Shown here one piece after another: positions 28,687 through 43,097 of a stretch of DNA of 64,000 nt. The notes below the pieces were generated by a model. That model ran no database searches. It saw only the letters and a list, made by a program, of their open reading frames with translations, and had not been told where the DNA came from. Position numbers and translations under genes: made by a program. Origin of the DNA: a candidate division KSB1 bacterium (GTDB lineage: Bacteria > Zhuqueibacterota > JdFR-76 > DREG01); NCBI GenBank assembly GCA_022566355.1, contig JADFJB010000002.1, positions 60,320 through 124,319 of the forward strand, read 5' to 3'. Each line of letters opens with the position of its first letter. Position 1 is the stretch's first letter.

Positions 28687-31600
28687 ATGTACGCAAATTC
28701 ATGGAAGAAGTTTAAAACCTTCTTTTTTGTAGCATCAATTGTTTTTGGCTTTTCATCGAATGTTTTTGCCCAGGATGTAACGGCTCAGAGTACTGAAGCG
28801 GGGATTATGACAAATTATACATTTGATCTTACTATTGCCGGTACGTTAGATTCTGCGGCAACTTTTACTGCTGTATTTCCTTCCGGATTTGATGCGTCAA
28901 ACGTAATCATCGCTACTAGTTCTACCATGGATGGTGGATTCGATGTTACATTTGCATCAACCACCACGGTGAATTTTAAACGGGATGAAACAGGAACAGA
29001 TGCAACCGGTGCTGGGCATAACGTGATCATTGGTGTTGTTAAAAATCCTACTGCAACAGGTGTAACTGGAACTATTGTTTTGAGTGGCAGTGCGAGTGCG
29101 AATGGTACTGTAACTATAACAGCAGGAAGTTTAACAAAACTGGAAATTCGGGATACAGCAGGTGGTGGTGGAAGTGTCCTTACATCTTGGAGCATGACTG
29201 CTGATGACAGTAAGACCTATCATGCTCATGGTTATGACCAGTTTAACAATGATCTGGGTGATCAATCTGCAACGTGGAGTTCAACGGGGACTTTAGCGCC
29301 GACAGTTTCAGAAACAGCAACCAGTACAACTTTTAGTCCAACTACGGCACCGGCAGAGGGCGGTATAATTGCAACTTCTGGAAGTGTAACTGCTTCAGTT
29401 GCTGTTACCGTAAGTGTTGGAGCAGTAAATACTATTGAAATTGTAGATGATGGCGGGACAGCCTTAGGAACTCAAAATATTACGACAGATGATGATCTTG
29501 CTTTATATGCCAAAGCACAGGACATAGATTCTAATGACATTGGATTTGTCAGTGTTACCTGGAGCTCTTCAGGATTGACCCCTTCCGTAAGCGGCAGTGG
29601 AACGAGCACAACTTTTAGTCCTACAGATGATTCAAATGGTACGATAACAGCTACTCATCCCAATGATACCGATCAAATTACAGTGAATGTTTCTGTAGGA
29701 GCACTAGCGAAACTCAGGTTACGTAGTGCGGCAAATAATGGCGGCAGTGAGTTATCAGCCCAGGCGATGGTTATCGGTAGCAGTTTACAGATGTTTGCGG
29801 CGGGTTATGATTTAGATGACAATTATATAGCAGATCAGGCTTCATCGAGTTGGAGTACGACAGGCACGTTGACTCCCACGGTAACCGGCACGGGGACAGA
29901 CAAGACCTTTACCCCGACGACGGCACCGGCAAGCGGGACGATAACAGCGACAGCGAGTGGAAACTCAGCGAGTGTAGGCATAACAGTAAGCCAGGGCACA
30001 GTAGCGTCTATATTGATTCGTGATCAGTCCGGTGGACTAGGGAATGAAGTCGGAGCAGTGGCCATGACGTCAGATGAATCACGGACGTTTTATGCAGCGG
30101 GTTATGATGCCCAGAGTAACTTTGTATCGGATGTGACGGTGACCTGGAGTTCGGGTGGAACATTGGCTCCAGCGGCGAGTGGCAGCAGTTCGAGTTTTAC
30201 GTTTAGCCCGACGACAGCGCCGGCGAGTGGTACACTCTCAGCAGATGATGGCAGCGGCCATACCGATGATACCGGCACGATCACAGTGACAGTTGGGGAT
30301 CCAACGAGAATAAAAATATTGTCCGAATCAAGTGGTGAAAAACTTGAAGTTACTTCAGTTGTAATGACACCAGAAGAAACCTTACCAGTTCATGCATCGA
30401 GTTTTGATGCTGAAAATAATTATATAGAGGATGTGAATGTAAACTGGAGTGTAAGCGGAGATATCGGAACATTAAGCAACTCTTCTGGTTCTTCAACAGT
30501 ATTGACAGCAACGACTAAAGGTTTTGGCCTGATTGCAGCAGTTCATGCGAGTTTGATAGGTGATGTGACTGGAACCATTGAGGTACAGGCAGGCAATCTT
30601 AACCACGTCCTAATCATGACTAAATCCGGTGGTCCACCTGCCGGAGCTTTGGAGTTTGGCAATATCACAATTACAGCGGATGATTCCATAACCCTTTATG
30701 CAGCAGGCTTTGATGCCGGAGATACATATTTGGGGGATGCAAATGTGAATTGGTCTTCTACTGACCTTGATCCCGTAGTCAATGCTTCGGACAAATCCAG
30801 TGTGGTTTTCTCACCAGTACAAGCGCCTAAATTCGGTTTAATTTCCGTAACCGTGGTTGGTGCACAAGGTGATCAGACCGGGACTATTAGTGTAAAACCA
30901 GGAAACCCTACCGGTACTATCGAATTAACCGCAACCCCACCCGTGTTACCGGCGGATAATACAAGCAAATCAATTATTCAATCCAATGTAATCAGGGACA
31001 ATGATCTGAATCCGATTGAAGCAGGTACGTTGGTTACAGTTGCCACGGACCTTGGCACAATCACAAACCCACAAGATTTAGATCCACTACAGCCGGATAT
31101 TCAAATTGCGGCAAATTCTTCAGGCATTATTTCTTTTGAACTTCAAGCTGGAATTCAGGGAGGGACAGCATTTATAAGAGCAAACAGTTTTAACGCTGCG
31201 GGAGACACAAAGGTACAAATCACCAATTTACGAATTCTTAAAATATCAGCTCGAAATTTGGTCAGCCAGGGTCAACAGGATGTAATAGTAACAATGACGG
31301 TAGAAAACATTGGCAGTGAGCAGGTTATCAATAGTACGGCCTCACTGTTTTTTATAGGTCCGGCGCCTGATTTTACAAGCTATGATGGAGATTATACAGG
31401 ACGTACTCGAAGTAATTTAGTAATACCTGCAAACACTACAACAACCATCGATTTTACCATTGGTGTTAATAATGATGCTACAATCAATTCAGATATTACC
31501 ATCGATGGAAATGTAAGCGGCTCTGTAAATTCGGTTACAGTTTCAACTCAAGGTGCAGACACTACTGATATTTGGCGTGTGGAAACCCCTGCCGATCTAA

Positions 31601-34600
31601 GAATTCTCAGTGTCTCAACAAATCCCGACACTATTTCCCAGGGCCAACAAAAAATGCAAGTGGAAATGAAAGTGCAAAACCAGGGGCAAGCGACTGCAGA
31701 TATTTCAAATGCTACCTTAGCTTTTCGAAGTGGAGCGACAAATGTGGATAACCAGTATACTGTCAATGCAGACGGAGGGAATCCGATATCCATTATAGGT
31801 GGGGAAATAGGAACTTTCGAGTTTGAAGTGGATGCTACCGGAAGCGCTGACCTGGGTTCTATTACAATAGACGGATCCATTTCGGGTGTTGACCGAAATT
31901 CTAATGTTGAGATTAATGATACAGATGCAGACACATCGGATAGTTGGGTCGTTGTTAAGGCATCGGTTATACAAATTGTTTCGCTTCAACCATCACAATC
32001 CGAAGTTACTCAAAATCAGACTCGTGATTGGGATGTTTGGATGCATGTGAGAAATAATAATAATACCGGTGGTTCTACCGTACGGTTTGATAGCGCGCGA
32101 ATCACAATTTTTCTTGGCACTGAAGTTACACATGAATATTCAATAAGTACTCCAACAAGCTTTTTTAGCGGTGGACAAAATTTAACAACATTAAGCCCGG
32201 CAATCATTGATTCTGTTCGATTCATAATTCAAAACACCGGTTTTACCCGAGGGATTGCGACAATACAAGGGGAACTGTATGTGACGGATTTAACAAGCAA
32301 TGAAACAATACCTGCCAATACAAATGGGAACTCTGCGAGTTTGACAATTCAATCTCCGGCTATTTTAAGTGTCTTTTTTCTTCAATTAACACAAACGTCC
32401 GTAACGGTAGGTCAGGAAACAAATTGGGATGTAATTGCAAATATCCAAAATGACGGTGAGAGCACAATAAGAATAGACACCTTGGTGGCTAAAACTTTTT
32501 TGGAGTTTAAATTCCAATCCAATCCCATTAATGATTTTGTTATTATCCAACCGCCGGGTTTGGATTCGGGTGGATTTGATTTAATCGGTGGACAATCATC
32601 AAGCTTAGTTTTTACAATCGATAAAACCAGTAGTGACACTACCGGTTTATTTACGGTCAAAGCTAAAGTTTCAGGAACTGAGGTGAATAGCGGCCGTGAA
32701 ATTAATGATGAATCTGATCCAAAATTCTTTATTATAGAAGAGCCGCCTGAAATTCTAATCAGTTCCACAACAGTAATTGCTCCAAATACTCCGGACATTA
32801 ATACCGGTCAGGTATTTCAAGTAAAAGTTACGATAGTAAATGATGGTGGAGACGCAGTTAAATCGGTATTTGTTGGTTTAGAGCGCGATAGTCTTGGCCA
32901 ATCAATTTTTAGTTCACCTTTTCTAATAGGAACCATTCCGGGAGATGGGCAATCAAGAGTCGCCACCTTTTCAATAACAGCCTCACAAGCTGTGGGTATG
33001 TCCGAAACATTTACAAGCGCCATTTTAAGCGCCAAGGAAGAAAATACCGGGAATCTGGCAACCATATTACCTTCTGTGGATTCAACAGCAACCATCAACA
33101 TTGAAAAACCGGCAGGTCTGGATATTGTATCGGTAACCCCATCTCAGGATACAGTGCTAGCTGGACAAGGGATTCCTAATTTTTGGGATGTTATTGTCGT
33201 GGTGCAAGATACCGGCGGAGCCAGCATTACTTTTGATGAATTCAATAAGGACGATCTCGTCTTTCGGTTAAACGGTGAAATTCAGGATGATTATACTATA
33301 GATTCCCCTGAAAATTTAAAGGGTGGAGATCGAATATTAGAAACGGGTGAGCGGGATACATTGATTTATGTCGTCAGAAGCACAGGCGGTTTAAGCGGAA
33401 CGGTAGATATTTCTGTTTCATTATCAGCAAAAGATGACAATGATGAATCTGTGCTGGGAGTTACTAAATCAGGTTCAGTTGTAGTTAAATCCGCTGCGAT
33501 TGTTCAACTGATAAAAACAGAAATAGAAGCCCCTCACCTGTTAGACCAGAACAATGCTGAAGTAAACCGAGGCGCCATCTTCAAAGTAATAGCCACTGTT
33601 GAAAATAAAGCGAGCGAAAATGTAAAAGATGTTTGGATGAGTATCATCAGCACCGGTGGATCAGAATTAATCGATACGTCTGTATCTATTCCATTTATTC
33701 CTGCTCGCGAAAGCCGATCAGCTGAATTTGAGATTAGAGCAGATTCCCAAGTAAACCCTGGAGAGACGTTTACGGTCAGGATTGATAGTGCAAGATCACA
33801 ATTAAGTAATCAGCCCGCTTCTATTCAAGAACCCTTTGATGCAACCGCAATTGCGGTCATTGAAAATCCGGCAGTGGCAACGGTTGATTTATCGATTAAC
33901 GATCAGGATGGATTACTTTCAGTTGAGCAAGCAGTAGAAGTCAGTGTATCCCTTGTCAATAATGGTGGCTCTCGCCTCGTTGGCACAGGACGCGTTGAGT
34001 TGATTATTCCGCAGAATTATGAACTTATTTTTGGAAATGACACAAGTTATGTGGCAAAAGATACGGTAGATATAGTATTTGGCACACAGGTACATTGGAA
34101 CCTGGTTACACCGAAATTTAGCCAGGGTCCAGACATATTGATTGCCAATCTTCTTGTAGCGCCTAAAGATGAAAACACGGATCAAGACGCAATTATAACA
34201 CCTGGATTTGACGAAACAATTATTGAAACCATCTCTGGCCAATTATTAACAGAAGAAGAGATTATAGACCCGGAAGGAGCCAAAGATGGTATTGTTTCTA
34301 CCGAACAAGAATTTGAATTAAGATCAATAATCCAGGCTCCTGGCAACTTTAATAAACGTAAAGCTACGTTAATTTTGCCATCCCCATATGAAGTTATCAC
34401 TACTAATTTAACTCAGGACTATGATGATCAGGATGAAATAATTTGGCATATTAAAGCTCCTGCAAGTATCGATCAGCAAAAACGGTATCTAATCATACAA
34501 GCACAAGCCACTGATGAATTCGGCACAACAGTATTTGCTGTTCCCGATAGTGTTGAGGTTGAAACTGTTAAACGCGCCAATTTACGTGTTACTGGTTTCA

Positions 34601-36465
34601 TTTCTGAACCTCAGGGTGCGTTGGACGGGACACTCTCAGCAAATCAACCTTTCACAATAAGAGCCAGAATTGAGAACTTGGGAAAAGCAAGGACCGAAGG
34701 GGCTGCTTCGGTTAGTTTAAACCTGGGATTCTCAGGAGTTACTGTTCAGGAACCACTTGATCGGCCGTTTGTTTTTGATCCCGACAAAGTTGAATCTGTG
34801 GTTGATTGGCATGCAACAGCGCCAAATCAAGTGACTCCGACATCATGGATAACAGTGTCTATCGATACAATTCCGGATGATGAAAATACGAACCAATTAG
34901 CCCAGGTTAGTCAAGATCAATTTCAAATCCAGGTTCAAACGGTAAAAGCAGGTGATTTGTCAGATAGTCTTTGGATTAGTTTTCCAGAAGGTGCAACAGA
35001 CAGTGTTTTATCAACAGACCAACAATTTAAAGTACGAGCATTAGTGACTTTCTTAAATGCCGAAGAGGTCACTACTATATTAACTCTACCACCGGGCTTT
35101 GATACTGAAAACAACTCCAGACTTGTGTTCGTATCAGGAGCCATTGTTTCGTGGGATGTAACGGCTTCTTCGACAGGTGTACAAAATCAAGTACTTGTAG
35201 TTCAAAGCCACGCTAGAGATGAAAATGATAGCAACCGTGAGATTTTCAGCGTAGCTGACAGTATCGCTTTAACGGTTGTTCAAAAAGCAAGAGTGCAGGT
35301 AGTCGCAAGAGTCACGGATCCTTTTGATGCTAAAGAAGGAATTGTATCAACGGAACAAGAATTTACTATTAGTGCGACTGTGGAAAATGCGGGTGCAGCA
35401 GACCTGAAAGGAGAATCCCAGCTTAGACTGGTATTGCCGGCTGGGTTTTCAACTGTGAATGATACCGTCACTATCAAAGAAACTTCAAACCAAATGGCAA
35501 GTTGGAGAGTAAAGGCACCTGTCTTACCTTCAGCAATTCCACAAAATATCACAGTATTTCTTGCCAGAGCACCCAATGACGAAAACACGAACGATCACGC
35601 AACTGTTGATATTTCAGTGGATAATGTCACATTAACAGTTGAACAGAAAAAATTAGAGATTGAATTAAATTCATCAATTGCCCCAGGTGCGTTTTTAAAA
35701 GGCGCAAAAAATGTTGGAGTATTGGGTCTCAATTTGAGAAACAGCGGTGGGCAAGGTTCGAGTTCAATTATTATTTCAAGAATTAATTTATATGTACGGG
35801 ATGAGAATAATGAAAACCTTCCACCGAATTCTATTTTTTCATATATTTCGGTAAGGAATAGCAGAGACACAACGGATATTTTTGGGGCAATAATACCTGG
35901 TTCCGACAATCCAATGACTATACCGTTAGATCTGTTAAAGCTTAAATTAGAACCTGGTATTCTTAAGTTTATTGGGATTTATGTTGATATCTTACCTACT
36001 GCGAATACGACTAATTTTTATGTTACGTTTCTATTCGATGACGACATCGATGCTATTGACGAAAACACCCAAAAACACGTTTTCCTGGTAAATCAAAGTG
36101 GCGAAGACCTTGATATTCTGACGCTTAGATCAGACAATACCGGGATCGTTGAACCCAGTTTTTCTACTTTTGGAAATTATCCTAATCCATTTGGCAGGTC
36201 TGGATCATTCACCAAGTTCTTTTATGTTTTAGAAGAAAAAACAGGTGGAGAGCTGCGAATTTACACTCTTGTGGGAGATTTAGTTAGGGTGTATTCCTTT
36301 AGTGAAGCCGACGATGAATTTAGTTCTAAGGGACCTCATGACGGCTCAATTTCATGGGATGGGAAAAATGGCAATGGAGATTTAGTATTGAACGGCGTTT
36401 ATATTGCCATTTTAACCACAAATAGTGGAAAACAAGCAATGACAAAAGTTGCCGTAGTTAAATAG
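28687..36465 (+). CDS. Giant secreted repeat protein with type IX-like C-terminal sorting domain
   Basis: A 2592-residue surface or secreted protein, probably an adhesin or matrix component. In order: signal peptide (1-29); an N-terminal beta domain shared with the preceding small protein (30-140); six tandem Ig/BIG-like repeats of about 98 residues starting near 149, 247, 340, 439, 539 and 638 (each opens with an IxI/LRD-type strand and carries a WSS core and often FSPTTAPASG); an invasin-like domain (740-845); about twelve CARDB-like repeats of 110-130 residues (850-2320), the later ones sharing AKDGIVSTEQEF-type openings; and a FlgD-like C-terminal domain from about 2489 (NYPNPFGRSGSFTKF, SWDGKNGNGDLVLNGVYIAIL), the usual shape of a type IX sorting signal. 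The PorV-like gene follows by 9 bases. Confidence 0.88.
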   Translation: MYANSWKKFKTFFFVASIVFGFSSNVFAQDVTAQSTEAGIMTNYTFDLTIAGTLDSAATFTAVFPSGFDASNVIIATSSTMDGGFDVTFASTTTVNFKRDETGTDATGAGHNVIIGVVKNPTATGVTGTIVLSGSASANGTVTITAGSLTKLEIRDTAGGGGSVLTSWSMTADDSKTYHAHGYDQFNNDLGDQSATWSSTGTLAPTVSETATSTTFSPTTAPAEGGIIATSGSVTASVAVTVSVGAVNTIEIVDDGGTALGTQNITTDDDLALYAKAQDIDSNDIGFVSVTWSSSGLTPSVSGSGTSTTFSPTDDSNGTITATHPNDTDQITVNVSVGALAKLRLRSAANNGGSELSAQAMVIGSSLQMFAAGYDLDDNYIADQASSSWSTTGTLTPTVTGTGTDKTFTPTTAPASGTITATASGNSASVGITVSQGTVASILIRDQSGGLGNEVGAVAMTSDESRTFYAAGYDAQSNFVSDVTVTWSSGGTLAPAASGSSSSFTFSPTTAPASGTLSADDGSGHTDDTGTITVTVGDPTRIKILSESSGEKLEVTSVVMTPEETLPVHASSFDAENNYIEDVNVNWSVSGDIGTLSNSSGSSTVLTATTKGFGLIAAVHASLIGDVTGTIEVQAGNLNHVLIMTKSGGPPAGALEFGNITITADDSITLYAAGFDAGDTYLGDANVNWSSTDLDPVVNASDKSSVVFSPVQAPKFGLISVTVVGAQGDQTGTISVKPGNPTGTIELTATPPVLPADNTSKSIIQSNVIRDNDLNPIEAGTLVTVATDLGTITNPQDLDPLQPDIQIAANSSGIISFELQAGIQGGTAFIRANSFNAAGDTKVQITNLRILKISARNLVSQGQQDVIVTMTVENIGSEQVINSTASLFFIGPAPDFTSYDGDYTGRTRSNLVIPANTTTTIDFTIGVNNDATINSDITIDGNVSGSVNSVTVSTQGADTTDIWRVETPADLRILSVSTNPDTISQGQQKMQVEMKVQNQGQATADISNATLAFRSGATNVDNQYTVNADGGNPISIIGGEIGTFEFEVDATGSADLGSITIDGSISGVDRNSNVEINDTDADTSDSWVVVKASVIQIVSLQPSQSEVTQNQTRDWDVWMHVRNNNNTGGSTVRFDSARITIFLGTEVTHEYSISTPTSFFSGGQNLTTLSPAIIDSVRFIIQNTGFTRGIATIQGELYVTDLTSNETIPANTNGNSASLTIQSPAILSVFFLQLTQTSVTVGQETNWDVIANIQNDGESTIRIDTLVAKTFLEFKFQSNPINDFVIIQPPGLDSGGFDLIGGQSSSLVFTIDKTSSDTTGLFTVKAKVSGTEVNSGREINDESDPKFFIIEEPPEILISSTTVIAPNTPDINTGQVFQVKVTIVNDGGDAVKSVFVGLERDSLGQSIFSSPFLIGTIPGDGQSRVATFSITASQAVGMSETFTSAILSAKEENTGNLATILPSVDSTATINIEKPAGLDIVSVTPSQDTVLAGQGIPNFWDVIVVVQDTGGASITFDEFNKDDLVFRLNGEIQDDYTIDSPENLKGGDRILETGERDTLIYVVRSTGGLSGTVDISVSLSAKDDNDESVLGVTKSGSVVVKSAAIVQLIKTEIEAPHLLDQNNAEVNRGAIFKVIATVENKASENVKDVWMSIISTGGSELIDTSVSIPFIPARESRSAEFEIRADSQVNPGETFTVRIDSARSQLSNQPASIQEPFDATAIAVIENPAVATVDLSINDQDGLLSVEQAVEVSVSLVNNGGSRLVGTGRVELIIPQNYELIFGNDTSYVAKDTVDIVFGTQVHWNLVTPKFSQGPDILIANLLVAPKDENTDQDAIITPGFDETIIETISGQLLTEEEIIDPEGAKDGIVSTEQEFELRSIIQAPGNFNKRKATLILPSPYEVITTNLTQDYDDQDEIIWHIKAPASIDQQKRYLIIQAQATDEFGTTVFAVPDSVEVETVKRANLRVTGFISEPQGALDGTLSANQPFTIRARIENLGKARTEGAASVSLNLGFSGVTVQEPLDRPFVFDPDKVESVVDWHATAPNQVTPTSWITVSIDTIPDDENTNQLAQVSQDQFQIQVQTVKAGDLSDSLWISFPEGATDSVLSTDQQFKVRALVTFLNAEEVTTILTLPPGFDTENNSRLVFVSGAIVSWDVTASSTGVQNQVLVVQSHARDENDSNREIFSVADSIALTVVQKARVQVVARVTDPFDAKEGIVSTEQEFTISATVENAGAADLKGESQLRLVLPAGFSTVNDTVTIKETSNQMASWRVKAPVLPSAIPQNITVFLARAPNDENTNDHATVDISVDNVTLTVEQKKLEIELNSSIAPGAFLKGAKNVGVLGLNLRNSGGQGSSSIIISRINLYVRDENNENLPPNSIFSYISVRNSRDTTDIFGAIIPGSDNPMTIPLDLLKLKLEPGILKFIGIYVDILPTANTTNFYVTFLFDDDIDAIDENTQKHVFLVNQSGEDLDILTLRSDNTGIVEPSFSTFGNYPNPFGRSGSFTKFFYVLEEKTGGELRIYTLVGDLVRVYSFSEADDEFSSKGPHDGSISWDGKNGNGDLVLNGVYIAILTTNSGKQAMTKVAVVK
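29128..30900 (+). repeat. Six tandem ~295-bp coding repeats (BIG-like units)
   Basis: Six consecutive units of about 295-300 bases code for the BIG-like domains. Their cores are alike at DNA level, for instance the stretch coding for TTAPASG near 29340, 29920 and 30210. Units 3 and 4 (about 29840-30300) are visibly richer in G and C than the rest, as if exchanged among themselves or with an outside copy. Confidence 0.7.
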
Positions 36466-38412: not shown

Positions 38413-41400
38413 GTGTTTAAATCAGTTGCTACAGAAGAAATTCAATTCCCTGCTGAGATAAATTCTCTCAAAAAGCTTCGAGATTTTGTAACGCGTATTG
38501 GTAAAAAATATAAACTTACCGATAAGATCATAAATTCTTTTAAACTCGCCGTTGACGAAGCCAGCACGAATATAATTCGGCATGCCTATCGCGATAAAAA
38601 AGGCCAAATAACCCTTCGAATCATCGTTCGTAAATATGATGTCACGGTCAGCCTCATTGACCAGGGGCGATATTTTGATCCTAAAAATGTAAAAGACCCG
38701 GACCTAAAGCGCTATGTTAACATAGGTAAAAAAGGCGGCTTAGGAATTTTCATGATCAGAAAATTAGTCGATGATGTTGATTACAGGCGCATTGAAAGAG
38801 GTAATGAACTCAGGTTAACCAATAGAAGAGAACGAAAAAAATCCAAGTTTTCATTACCTTCCTTTACCGGGTCGTTACGGGCCAAATATTTTTCCTTTGC
38901 AGCGGTTATTGTAAGTGCGATAATTGTAATTTATTACGTTTTCAATTTTATTACAATCAAAGGTCAAATCCTGGATGATGCTTATATTCGAATGCGTGAT
39001 AGATCAATTCCGTTTGCTGCGAATATATTGGATGAATATGTAAATCGTAGCGAATTTAATCCTGAGCTCTCAGCAAAAGCACAAGAGTATTGGAATCAGA
39101 ATCAAAACTTTATAAGATATGTGATTATAACAAATTTGAAGCATAAAATTGTAGGGTCTTCTAATCCCGGGTTGTTCACACCTGAATTAGATAATTTTAA
39201 TCCGCAAAATCCCAGGTTCAACGTTGATGAGTATATTCAAGTAGCAATGATAACCACGAATCAAGACTCTGTCCAGTCAGAGTATTTTATTGTTCGGCGG
39301 CCCATAATACCAAGGCGCTCAACAGACAATAAAGCCATAGGTAATACCTACATCCTTATTCCAACTGAGCCGATTTTTGCAGAGGTAAAAGAAGAGCAAG
39401 CCCTGGTTGTGCAATTTTTCTTTTTGGTTTTAGTAATCGCCAATGCAAGTGTTGGTGTATTAATTTTGCTTGTATTTATTCCATTGCAAAAGCTTTCTAC
39501 TTGGGTAAAAAGTATGGGAGAGGGGGATATCAAAGATCAGGTGGAAATTGATTCTTCCGATGAAATTGGTAAAATCGCACAGGCCTTCAGCGAAATTACA
39601 GATAAATTTCGAGAATCTCAAAAATCCCTTGTAGATCAGGAAAAAATTCAGCAAGAAATGCATTTGGCTAAAGAAATTCAGCAAACTCTTTTGCCTGCCG
39701 AGTTTCCGGAAATGGAAGGCTATGAAATCGCATCTTACTATGAATCAGCAAAAGAAGTAGGTGGAGATTATTACGATTTTGTTCAAATAGATCGTCATAG
39801 AATGGGTGTTGTGGTTGCTGATGTGTCTGGCAAAGGCGTTCCCGGCTCCCTGGTTATGACGATGATAAGAACAGCTCTCAGAACCGAAGCAAAAGGAAGA
39901 GGCTCTTCTGCAGATGTGCTTTCAAGGGTTAACCAATTCGTAATGGATGATATTCGCAAAGGAATGTTTGTTACACTTTTCTATATTATCCTGGATTCCA
40001 GAAGGAGAAGAATAACATTTGCGAGCGCCGGCCACAATCCCATGATCTTGCATCGGGAGTCTACAAAAAAAACCTATTATCTTAATCCTAAGGGATTCCC
40101 GGTTGGAATTTCATTGGGTGAAAATGATCTGTTTAAAAAATCCATAGTGGATGATACCATCCAATTAAGTAAGGGTGATATTATTTTATGCTATACGGAT
40201 GGTATTACCGAAGCAATGAATTCTAACCGAGAATTATTTGGAGAAGAAAGACTCCTGTCGGTAGTGAGAGAATATGGTCGTTTGAGTGCTAAACAGTTTG
40301 TTGAAAAATTGAATGAAGAAATTCTGTCCTTCACAGAAGGTCATATACAAAATGACGACATTTCGCTTGTAGTGATCAAAGAAAACATGAATCCGGATGA
40401 AGCGGAATTGGAGCGTGCTAAACAGGCCTACTATAAAACATTGGATGGAACATCCATTAAGGATGCCAGCCAGGAAGTAGGAATCGCGCTCACCACCTTT
40501 AATAATAAGTATAAAAAGCAGTTTGAAAAAATGGGGATTGATCGATTCAAGCATGAATTTGAAACGACTTCGGTTGAGGCAAAACATTTAAGTATCGAAG
40601 AGCAAACCAAAATCTATGATATTATAAGGAAAACGCCTGTTTGGGGTCCGAAGCGAATTAGTGAGCAATTAGAAACAGAAGAATATGGATTTACAAAAAT
40701 GTTACCTTGGCGAATCTATGATGAACTGGTTCGAAAACGATTGAATACGAAGCAGCTTCGAGAAGCCTATGTGGCTAGAGGTGATAATAAAAAGCGAATG
40801 AAACCGCCAGGAACACCGATGTTAACCCTAGATGGTCGGATTTTAGTCGAAGAATATATGGAACCCCCAATAACTTCTCCTGTTACACCGGTAGAAGTAA
40901 AACCAAAAGAACCAGAGAAAGAAGTTGTTGAACAAAAGCCAACTAAAGAAGAAATTGATAAAAAGAAACCGAAGAGTAAAAAAAGAATTCCTCTCGAAGA
41001 TGCCGAGGTTTCTGATTATGTCCTCAAAGATATTGTAGAATTATTAGATAAAAACATAGAAGACGACTATAGCAAGGAAGTTAAGGAAGCATCGGAAGAG
41101 CAAACTGAAATAGAGACAACCAATGAACCGATGTCCATTTCTGCGATAGATGAAAGTAATAGTGAAGAGAATCCATCTGAAGTCGGTACCGATGTAAAAG
41201 ATTTACTTGATAATTTGGAATATGACGAACCAAAAAATGAGCCGGATGAAGATATAGATTTTTCCGATTTGTCGACGGAGGAATATACAAAAGAATTATT
41301 TGATGATCGGTCAAACGGTGACGAACAGGATGACCTGGAGCCAGAAGAATCGATAGCAGAAGTTTCAGAATTAACTGATTTACAAGATGAGGAGTCTTCG

Positions 41401-42306
41401 GAACATACGCAACGCGTAGAAGAAACAGAAGAAACTGCAAAACAGGTTCTGGAAACCTTATCTGCTAAAATTGAAGGTGATGCAGACATTGATGATTCAA
41501 TAAGCGCGAGTGAAGATGAAGAATTTATAGAATTAATTTCTGCAGATGCAGACATTGAACAAGTAGATGTAATTGAGCAATCAAGTGAAGAGTCGACCAA
41601 GGAATTAACAAAAAATACAATTAATGAGCCAATTGAAGAATCTATTGTTGATAGCAGCGATTCAGAACTTCAGCAAGAAAATAAAAGTGATATTGTCAAG
41701 GTTTCAAAAAGTCCCGAAGAAATATTTGATGAATTATCTGTGAAAGTTGACGAGGAAGAAAATAAATTAGAGGAAGTAATTTCGTTAAATGAAACCCCCA
41801 AATTGGACGAAAACAAGATAGATGATATATTTAACATGGTTTCGGAAGACGAAGAAATTAGTCTTGATAGCAAAGAGTTTGCTTCAGAATTCCCAAAAGA
41901 AGAAAATACAGAGGTAGTCAAAAAGGAAGCTGATTCAGTTGAAGAAAAAAAGCAAAAAATGATTATTGTTGGTGGTCATTATTATATGCAAAAAAAATAT
42001 GAAAAAGCTATTTCCGTATTCCAAAGAATTATCGATAAGTATCCAAATACCATTGAAGCCTATTACAATTTGGGGAATTCCTATTTTCGGATCAACAAGT
42101 GGAATGAGGCGCGGGATGCATATGAAGCAGCCTGTGAGCTTGACCCGACCTTTCTGGATGCAATGGAAAATTTGGGTGTGATATATGCAAATCAAAAGGA
42201 ATTTCATAGGGCTATCGATATTTGGGGCAAAATTTTGGAATACGACCCCAAACGTGTAGACTTGAAAAAAAACATTGAAAAAGCAGTAAAACTAAATGCG
42301 GGATAA
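38413..42306 (+). CDS. Multidomain partner-switching phosphatase (HATPase-sensor-HAMP-PP2C-HTH-TPR)
   Basis: A 1297-residue membrane signalling protein. Domains: RsbW-type anti-sigma kinase fold (1-135; DEASTNIIRHAY, DQGRYFDP, GGLGIFMI); membrane helix (about 160-185); extracytoplasmic sensor (186-330); second helix; HAMP (about 350-402); PP2C/SpoIIE phosphatase (about 435-656; KEVGGDYYDF, DVSGKGVPGSL, FASAGHNP, YTDGITEAMN, NDDISLVV); a Fis-like helix-turn-helix (about 670-712; IKDASQEVGIALTTF); a small winged-helix-like module (727-795) shared with the next gene; an acidic low-complexity linker (about 816-1176); and C-terminal TPRs (1180-1297). It starts with GTG, 12 bases after the PorV-like gene. 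Inferred role: dephosphorylating an anti-sigma-factor antagonist, probably the STAS protein that follows. Kinase and phosphatase in one chain is unusual. Confidence 0.87.
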   Translation: MFKSVATEEIQFPAEINSLKKLRDFVTRIGKKYKLTDKIINSFKLAVDEASTNIIRHAYRDKKGQITLRIIVRKYDVTVSLIDQGRYFDPKNVKDPDLKRYVNIGKKGGLGIFMIRKLVDDVDYRRIERGNELRLTNRRERKKSKFSLPSFTGSLRAKYFSFAAVIVSAIIVIYYVFNFITIKGQILDDAYIRMRDRSIPFAANILDEYVNRSEFNPELSAKAQEYWNQNQNFIRYVIITNLKHKIVGSSNPGLFTPELDNFNPQNPRFNVDEYIQVAMITTNQDSVQSEYFIVRRPIIPRRSTDNKAIGNTYILIPTEPIFAEVKEEQALVVQFFFLVLVIANASVGVLILLVFIPLQKLSTWVKSMGEGDIKDQVEIDSSDEIGKIAQAFSEITDKFRESQKSLVDQEKIQQEMHLAKEIQQTLLPAEFPEMEGYEIASYYESAKEVGGDYYDFVQIDRHRMGVVVADVSGKGVPGSLVMTMIRTALRTEAKGRGSSADVLSRVNQFVMDDIRKGMFVTLFYIILDSRRRRITFASAGHNPMILHRESTKKTYYLNPKGFPVGISLGENDLFKKSIVDDTIQLSKGDIILCYTDGITEAMNSNRELFGEERLLSVVREYGRLSAKQFVEKLNEEILSFTEGHIQNDDISLVVIKENMNPDEAELERAKQAYYKTLDGTSIKDASQEVGIALTTFNNKYKKQFEKMGIDRFKHEFETTSVEAKHLSIEEQTKIYDIIRKTPVWGPKRISEQLETEEYGFTKMLPWRIYDELVRKRLNTKQLREAYVARGDNKKRMKPPGTPMLTLDGRILVEEYMEPPITSPVTPVEVKPKEPEKEVVEQKPTKEEIDKKKPKSKKRIPLEDAEVSDYVLKDIVELLDKNIEDDYSKEVKEASEEQTEIETTNEPMSISAIDESNSEENPSEVGTDVKDLLDNLEYDEPKNEPDEDIDFSDLSTEEYTKELFDDRSNGDEQDDLEPEESIAEVSELTDLQDEESSEHTQRVEETEETAKQVLETLSAKIEGDADIDDSISASEDEEFIELISADADIEQVDVIEQSSEESTKELTKNTINEPIEESIVDSSDSELQQENKSDIVKVSKSPEEIFDELSVKVDEEENKLEEVISLNETPKLDENKIDDIFNMVSEDEEISLDSKEFASEFPKEENTEVVKKEADSVEEKKQKMIIVGGHYYMQKKYEKAISVFQRIIDKYPNTIEAYYNLGNSYFRINKWNEARDAYEAACELDPTFLDAMENLGVIYANQKEFHRAIDIWGKILEYDPKRVDLKKNIEKAVKLNAG

Positions 42307-42354
42307 AAATAAATTATGATGAAATTATGATACATTATTCAGCTTTAAAATTAA

Positions 42355-42383
42355 TTGATATTTGGCCTTAAATCGGCTATATT
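42355..42383 (+). promoter_or_regulatory. Sigma-70-type promoter upstream of the STAS gene
   Basis: TTGATA at 42355-42360, a 17-base spacer and TATATT at 42378-42383 lie 33 bases before the STAS start. The antagonist can therefore be made independently of the large phosphatase gene upstream. Confidence 0.72.
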
Positions 42384-42416
42384 TGCGCATTAAATATTAG
42401 GATAAAGGAGAGTTAT

Positions 42417-43097
42417 ATGGAAGGAATCCAAGTATCCGTTTCAAAGGTTGGCCCTCAAGACAAGATCTCCCAAATAAAAGTCGGAGGGTATATTGATACC
42501 ACAACATCGGCTGAAGTGGAGCGTGCTCTGGATGGACTAGTGAGAAAAGGTGACTATAATATTATCATAGAACTGGGCAACGTAGATTATATTAGTAGCG
42601 CGGGCTGGGGAATTTTTATTAGTGAAATCAAAGGAATTCGAGAGCGGGGCGGCGATCTTAAGCTTGCAAACATGATCCCCGATGTTTATGAAGTTTTTGA
42701 ACTGCTTGAATTCCATTATATTCTCAGGGCTTACGACACTATTGAAGAAGCCTCCAGAGATTTCAATTTGAATTCTGATAAATCATTACAGGATCCAGAC
42801 ACAATTGATCAAGTAGATGATGCTAACTATGACGATTTAGAAAAACAAGCAAAGCAAGAACCTGCTGCCAAAAGTGTTTCTGCTCCCTCCATAAATTCAA
42901 CTGAGGATAAGATCAAGAAAATCATTATCGACAATCCCGATTTAGGTTTTCTTGAGATTAAAAAAACATTAAATTCCGAGATTTATAATTTCACGAAAAT
43001 TGGTGTAATAGATACTTGGAAATACTTAAAAAAAATGGGGCTCACGTCCAAAAAGAAAAGAATGGAATTCTTTAAGAGCAAGGCGTTTCAAACCTAG
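42417..43097 (+). CDS. STAS anti-sigma-factor antagonist with C-terminal winged-helix-like module
   Basis: A 226-residue cytoplasmic protein. Residues 1-115 are a STAS domain with the phosphorylatable Ser in VDYISSAGWGIF (about 58-65) and the family pattern GGDLKLANMIPDVYEVFELLEF. A linker (about 120-155) leads to a basic C-terminal module (160-226) that aligns with residues 727-795 of the upstream phosphatase: both read S-E-K, P-G, I, L-E, Y-FTK, then L and basic residues. Standard antagonists stop after the STAS domain. AAAGGAGAG gives a strong ribosome-binding site. Phosphorylation by a HATPase kinase and reversal by the PP2C domain is the expected switch. Confidence 0.88.
   Translation: MEGIQVSVSKVGPQDKISQIKVGGYIDTTTSAEVERALDGLVRKGDYNIIIELGNVDYISSAGWGIFISEIKGIRERGGDLKLANMIPDVYEVFELLEFHYILRAYDTIEEASRDFNLNSDKSLQDPDTIDQVDDANYDDLEKQAKQEPAAKSVSAPSINSTEDKIKKIIIDNPDLGFLEIKKTLNSEIYNFTKIGVIDTWKYLKKMGLTSKKKRMEFFKSKAFQT

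Follow-up and report, generated by a model that had tools for sequence, protein, structure and literature searches.

What does it mean that a membrane-bound kinase-phosphatase and the STAS protein encoded beside it carry copies of the same small helical module? The question is raised by a gene pair on a 64,000-nucleotide stretch of DNA (the window) from a candidate division KSB1 bacterium, whose genome amounts to 4.6 Mb and is 98.5% complete. Among genomes with a name, the nearest are MAGs that bear the label candidate division KSB1, together with an 'uncultured Deferribacteres' MAG (66% identity over the HTH segment). A sequence-only reading of the window had described both proteins and proposed a signalling design that either acts directly at DNA or docks the pair through the common module. 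Here we follow up that proposal by profile comparison, structure prediction and analysis of homologous loci.

Domain organization of the sensor and STAS-A

The first gene encodes a bifunctional sensor in which, as initially described, a kinase, a sensor region, HAMP, PP2C, an acidic linker and TPRs all lie on one chain (Table 1). The HATPase_c_2 domain keeps its N-box and G-boxes in 53 homologues (DEAxTNIIRHxY, DQGxxFDP and GGLGIFxxRKL are conserved) and classifies by sequence as an RsbW/SpoIIAB-type kinase (PF13581). The SpoIIE domain, in which the motifs GGD, DxSGKG, TDGxTE and DD are invariant or nearly so and the metal-site aspartates invariant across the same homologues, is likewise predicted to be a partner-switching phosphatase (PF07228). 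From hydropathy and domain order, kinase and PP2C would both be cytosolic, on either side of a presumed periplasmic sensor. Pfam detected no REC domain in the sensor, the interval between kinase and PP2C being occupied by TM-sensor-TM-HAMP, no STAS domain within its 1297 residues, and no DDE (rve) catalytic domain in either the sensor or STAS-A. The linker holds 120 D/E and 36 K/R among 361 residues (33% D/E). The motif KPPGTPxLTLDG is almost invariant across 53 phosphatases.

The second gene encodes STAS-A, composed of a STAS domain, a linker and the C-terminal module. With 61.1 bits against TIGR00377 (curated cut-off 53.45) and a putative phospho-acceptor serine, it is classed by sequence as an anti-sigma-factor antagonist; our own alignment with SpoIIAA and RsbV leads us to expect Ser61 as the acceptor. 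The window's STAS-A itself lies outside any polysaccharide locus.

Elsewhere in the window (28687-36465) there is a gene for a 2592-aa repeat protein with no Pfam match at E 0.001 and an NYPNPF.../GVYIAIL-type C-terminus that is T9SS/FlgD-like by eye. It lies upstream of the gene for a 641-aa protein with TPRs and, again by eye, a PorV-like N-terminus, and in several relatives, too, a similar gene lies ahead of the phosphatase.

Table 1. Features of the sensor kinase-phosphatase and of STAS-A (window coordinates).
Feature	Residues	Position	Strand	Basis
Bifunctional sensor, GTG start: RsbW-like kinase-TM-sensor-TM-HAMP-PP2C-tandem HTH-acidic linker-TPR	1297 aa	38413..42306	+	ORF, Pfam, composition
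Anti-sigma-factor-type serine kinase domain (HATPase_c_2)	12-136	38446..38820	+	Pfam, E 4e-27
TM1, presumed periplasmic sensor, TM2	TM1 ~160-182; TM2 ~331-356	38890..39480	+	Hydropathy peaks 160-162, 331-339
HAMP domain	357-392	39481..39588	+	Pfam
PP2C/SpoIIE phosphatase domain	461-656	39793..40380	+	Pfam, E 4.7e-50
HTH1, first half of transposase-like tandem HTH	~662-719	40396..40569	+	Profile matches, AlphaFold2
Shared module, second HTH of tandem	722-790	40576..40782	+	Profile-profile, shuffles, AlphaFold2
Motif KPPGTPxLTLDG, right behind shared module	797-808	40801..40836	+	Alignment
Acidic low-complexity linker	815-1175	40855..41937	+	Composition
C-terminal TPR repeats	~1185-1290	41965..42282	+	Pfam
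STAS-A, anti-sigma-antagonist-type, ends in shared module	226 aa	42417..43097	+	ORF, Pfam, TIGR00377
STAS domain of STAS-A	15-112	42459..42752	+	Pfam; RsbV and SpoIIAA are the top structural matches
Ser61 of STAS-A, putative phospho-acceptor	61	42597..42599	+	Invariant in 61 homologues
Shared HTH module of STAS-A, basic	160-226	42894..43094	+	Profile-profile, AlphaFold2, charge

The shared module is half of a transposase-type tandem HTH

As a single pair, the sensor and STAS-A modules share 42% identity over 31 aa by BLASTP (E 1e-4), and a search with the phosphatase segment alone reaches the C-termini of STAS proteins from many genomes (best 3e-7). Profiles were built from 24 phosphatase segments (A1), 19 STAS-A C-termini (A2) and 11 C-termini of a second STAS type, STAS-B (A3). 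Profile-profile comparison gave 98.1% (E 7.3e-14, score 73) for A1-A2, 97.2% (E 3e-11, score 59) for A1-A3 and 99.8% (E 8e-29) for A2-A3; 200 column shuffles of A2 or A3 scored at most 13.2, and at most 12 where the real score was 73. These shuffled-profile nulls and the cross-genome retrieval rule out chance likeness, and homology of the sensor module and the STAS C-terminal module is confirmed at the level of sequence, with the shared residues listed in the sequence-only reading recovered in the core of the joint alignment (SIEEKI..II..P..G...I...LNTE.YG.T.I.....Y..L...L.L.TK..R).

AlphaFold2 models, mostly at pLDDT >90, predict the same four helices in both copies rather than unrelated folds (68-80/86-93/105-114/120-130 in phosphatase segment numbering; 162-172/178-185/197-206/212-223 in STAS-A), with equal loop lengths between them. 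No β-strand or β-wing is predicted in either copy, so the module's original label of 'winged-helix-like' is unsupported.

The suggested likeness to the HTH of IS481/IS3-type transposases is borne out: the IS481 model is matched by every one of the 24 phosphatase segments (best 1.1e-17) and the IS3 model by 18 of them, and Pfam HTH_32, HTH_21, HTH_28, HTH_23 and HTH_29 recur among them. The isolated module of a third STAS type, STAS-C, matches HTH_32 (5e-6) and HTH_21 (3e-4). Because the IS481 matches span both HTHs in every segment, the small module and the 'Fis-like HTH', listed separately at first and both present, are better described as one tandem HTH; by sequence, residues ~662-790 of the sensor form a single unit of the IS481/IS3 transposase N-terminus type, and the STAS proteins carry the second half of it and not the first. 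The core of the module begins at ~722 rather than at 727, with the conserved PGTPxLTLDG following. Pax paired domains, MuA, TnsB and IstA rank among the solved structures closest to the tandem unit, with Z values of only 4-6; Foldseek alone returned no significant match for the tandem HTH, the VIA-align rows were modest, and no convincing solved sequence relative of it was found.

Conservation and distribution of the pair

A first scan of the genome contigs with the whole phosphatase as query gave no match. The segment profile retrieved 64 named loci, in six of which the phosphatase gene runs off the contig, leaving 58 assessable. In 55 of these a STAS gene lies directly downstream, so that the predicted recurrence of the pair in related genomes was found; nearly all of these STAS genes display the module, a few being clipped at the contig end. 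The pattern is broken at three loci: L158, and L159 and L161, which are second copies. Both candidate division KSB1 and Calditrichota appear among the names attached to pair-bearing loci. Those Calditrichota versions that were inspected, ~895 aa long, have neither acidic linker nor TPRs and retain the kinase-sensor-PP2C-tandem HTH-PGTPxLTLDG arrangement.

Conservation, expressed as the mean frequency of the commonest residue in 53 phosphatase homologues, was 0.75 for the kinase, 0.68 for HAMP, 0.80 for PP2C, 0.77 for the module and 0.79 for the PGTP tail, against 0.32 for the sensor region, 0.56 for HTH1, 0.20 for the linker and 0.51 for the TPRs. The sensor's module is hence conserved on a par with kinase and PP2C, and HTH1 is the less conserved half of the tandem. 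The modules of the STAS proteins vary more than their STAS domains (mean distance 0.57 vs 0.23).

A profile of all module types gave exactly three matches (phosphatase, STAS-A and STAS-B) in 26 of 39 genomes, additional matches being second phosphatases, phosphatase paralogues of ~1850-1990 aa without HTH1, or STAS-C. Every module match at E<=0.01 across 38 genomes was a phosphatase or STAS protein of the same pathway, and in KSB1 the module was seen in this pathway only, i.e. on the phosphatase, STAS-A, STAS-B and, in some genomes, STAS-C. The source genome encodes ~20 SpoIIE domains, ~20 STAS regions and ~10 such kinases; the module is carried only by the window's phosphatase, STAS-A and a STAS-B on contig C21. 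The ~1850-1990-aa kinase-phosphatase paralogues (L098:5203-11175, L099:4758-10268 and L100:4930-10479) retain the second HTH together with a PGTP-like motif. Their linkers are very long, TPRs are present wherever the gene was read to its end, and metabolic genes adjoin them.

STAS-B and STAS-C lie in polysaccharide clusters

STAS-B opens a polysaccharide-export operon, with Poly_export/SLBB and Wzz/tyrosine-kinase genes directly 3' in 11 of 11 loci and epimerase and sugar transferase genes following wherever the fetched stretch extends far enough. Its extreme C-terminus, R-F/Y-Y-R-S-R (RFYRSR), is basic and nearly invariant; R63, Y65, R66, S67 and R68 (A3 numbering) occur in 11/11, an unusually conserved protein end. 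STAS-C consists of a STAS domain, a long low-complexity linker and the module (L200-L205), and neighbours genes for Poly_export, Wzz, ParA-like, epimerase, polysaccharide deacetylase/DUF3473 and FemAB proteins. A cluster with DUF3473 deacetylase and FemAB is reminiscent of exosortase/PEP-CTERM polysaccharide clusters.

Within the 400 bases upstream of STAS-B (loci L206-L238 and L089-L105), a sigma54-type element, TGGCA-N6-TTG (TGGCA-N6-TTGC), was detected in 30 of 42 genomes (shuffle mean 0.17, maximum 2), whereas it precedes none of the homologues of the window pair (0/53 and 0/55). Tandem TGT-N11-ACA dyads (TGTTTC-like) occur in 27 of the 30 element-bearing regions (null maximum 12), ~100-200 bases above the element and with copies mostly 18-21 bp apart. 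As sites for the STAS HTH these dyads were rejected: being tandem and placed above a sigma54-type promoter, they are better read as sites of an NtrC-family activator. RpoN and ~20 NtrC-family activators are encoded in the genome, and the KSB1 STAS-B polysaccharide operon is apparently driven by RpoN together with some NtrC-type activator. The search for DNA sites of the module thus yielded none, and near STAS-A no candidate turned up.

Comparison with known systems

CapS is a STAS-wHTH repressor that is released from DNA by phosphorylation of a STAS serine, and its partner CapK, an HTH-STAS-GHKL protein activated by ssDNA, guards immune operons with it (PMC13373217, EMBO J 2026). The KSB1 pair shares with CapK/CapS an anti-sigma-type kinase and a STAS protein with a C-terminal HTH, both partners being HTH-bearing, a conserved STAS serine (the acceptor in CapS; putative here) and side-by-side genes; CapK/CapS also sits beside the operon it regulates, as STAS-B may do here (PMC13373217). 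There are also differences. CapS has a MarR/ArsR-like winged HTH, in contrast to the IS481/IS3-like module with four helices and no predicted wing; the CapK architecture is absent, the KSB1 kinase standing at the N-terminus of a membrane-bound chain that also holds the sensor region, PP2C and tandem HTH; and the link is to polysaccharide clusters instead of immune operons.

SypE and SypA of Vibrio fischeri, which govern polysaccharide biofilm, also combine an N-terminal serine kinase and a C-terminal PP2C on one chain with a STAS partner (PMC3610818, PMC4517449). A STAS partner in a polysaccharide locus, as SypA is, has its counterpart in STAS-B (all 11 loci) and STAS-C. SypE has a central REC and lacks membrane sensor, HTH and TPR, whereas the KSB1 sensor lacks REC, and SypA is STAS only whereas the KSB1 proteins add the HTH module. 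The arrangement of the STAS-B locus resembles the syp locus, where SypA stands under SypE. The syp locus is itself sigma54-driven. In HsbR/HsbA and CrsR/CrsA, PP2C and kinase again share a chain, with a STAS antagonist and control of lifestyle or biofilm, but the order is REC-PP2C-kinase, there is no HTH, and the outputs are FlgM, HsbD and RpoS (PMC6482189). The tandem HTH is N-terminal in IS481/IS3 transposases (NF033577, NF033516; 24/24 segments match NF033577), unlike which the present proteins are signalling proteins without the DDE catalytic domain, the STAS proteins having the second HTH only.

The kinase-phosphatase fusion on which the initial proposal rested is thus present, although its novelty was overstated, as SypE and HsbR precede it; a STAS-HTH protein with a kinase partner has likewise been known since CapK/CapS. 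What is new is the combination of a membrane kinase-phosphatase bearing a transposase-type tandem HTH with several STAS proteins bearing the matching half, conserved phylum-wide and linked to polysaccharide genes. We found no description of this combined architecture in the open-access literature.

A proposed switch and its alternatives

With a mean net charge of +7 and +10 and a pI of ~10, the STAS modules are strongly basic, which is compatible with nucleic-acid binding. The phosphatase module is near-neutral (mean +1.5) and HTH1 is mostly acidic; DNA binding by the sensor itself is therefore doubted, and a pairing or structural role is favoured for its copy.

By analogy with the systems above, the reading we find most plausible, while holding it tentatively, is a SypE/SypA-like switch in which the STAS proteins bear a basic HTH with a nucleic-acid-binding output as in CapS. 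The state of the membrane sensor would tip the balance between kinase and PP2C on the Ser61-type serines of a small STAS family, comprising the adjacent STAS-A and the STAS-B and STAS-C of the polysaccharide-export clusters. The STAS proteins themselves would be the output: phosphorylation of the STAS domain, in whichever direction the switch may run, would toggle nucleic-acid binding by the C-terminal HTH as in CapS, or alternatively alter partner binding. The tandem HTH of the sensor would be a related, electrostatically neutral copy, for which pairing with STAS or a structural role is likelier than DNA binding. The physiological output would probably be exopolysaccharide production. Against this reading stand the lack of any DNA site in the searches above, the recognition-helix region, where the phosphatase module has an invariant acidic residue (YxEL) and STAS-A and STAS-B have aromatics, and the greater divergence of the STAS modules relative to their STAS domains.

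It is also possible, though we think it rather unlikely, that the module is an address tag, the HTH being re-used as a protein-protein interface through which the sensor and STAS copies contact one another or some shared third protein, allowing the sensor to pick STAS-A, STAS-B and STAS-C alone out of ~20 STAS paralogues. This would suit a module that, in the source genome, is present on a single phosphatase and on two STAS proteins among ~20 SpoIIE and ~20 STAS regions, and whose phosphatase copy equals the catalytic domains in conservation yet is near-neutral; docking is also known to set substrate specificity in the phosphatase family (PMC11418112). Co-evolution speaks in two ways. With the other domains controlled, phosphatase HTH1 and the STAS module still vary together (partial r 0.36, p 0.001), which is suggestive but may be explained by clade structure, and partial mirror-tree analysis gave no direct module-module signal (r 0.07, p 0.17). 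An address tag would moreover account neither for how basic the STAS modules are nor for the RFYRSR end of STAS-B.

Ordinary partner switching, with the fused kinase as anti-sigma factor for one of the sigma factors of the genome, STAS-A as plain antagonist and the HTH as a passive leftover, appears improbable. It would fit the Rsb-like domain set and the SigBFG matches, all below cut-off, of four sigma-70-family ORFs, but no SigB/F/G-type sigma factor scores above cut-off in the genome, and a passive leftover is disfavoured because the module is strongly conserved and retained phylum-wide on both partners. Quite improbable, finally, is joint action at DNA, in which the sensor's tandem HTH would bind from the membrane in the manner of ToxR/CadC, the STAS module would bind the same or a nearby site and phosphorylation would be read at the promoter: the entire tandem unit is transposase-like and structurally closest to paired and transposase DNA-binding domains, but the acidity of HTH1, its lower conservation, the near-neutral module and the failure to find conserved sites all stand against it.

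Implications

The KSB1 pair is a second and seemingly unrelated example in which the STAS protein expected to be the substrate of an anti-sigma-type kinase has an HTH of its own, suggesting a general route by which partner switching bypasses the sigma factor. In evolutionary terms, a transposase-derived tandem HTH may have been built into a membrane kinase-phosphatase and its second HTH spread to the STAS substrates, making these sigma-independent, phospho-switched, DNA-binding regulators of polysaccharide operons, a scenario that we regard as speculative and somewhat doubtful. The module suggests a testable way in which one phosphatase could single out its substrates from ~20 paralogues and, should it prove to be a docking tag, a transposase HTH would have been re-used as a specificity code in signalling. 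For the organisms themselves, these genes hint at how exopolysaccharide may be controlled in two barely cultured phyla.
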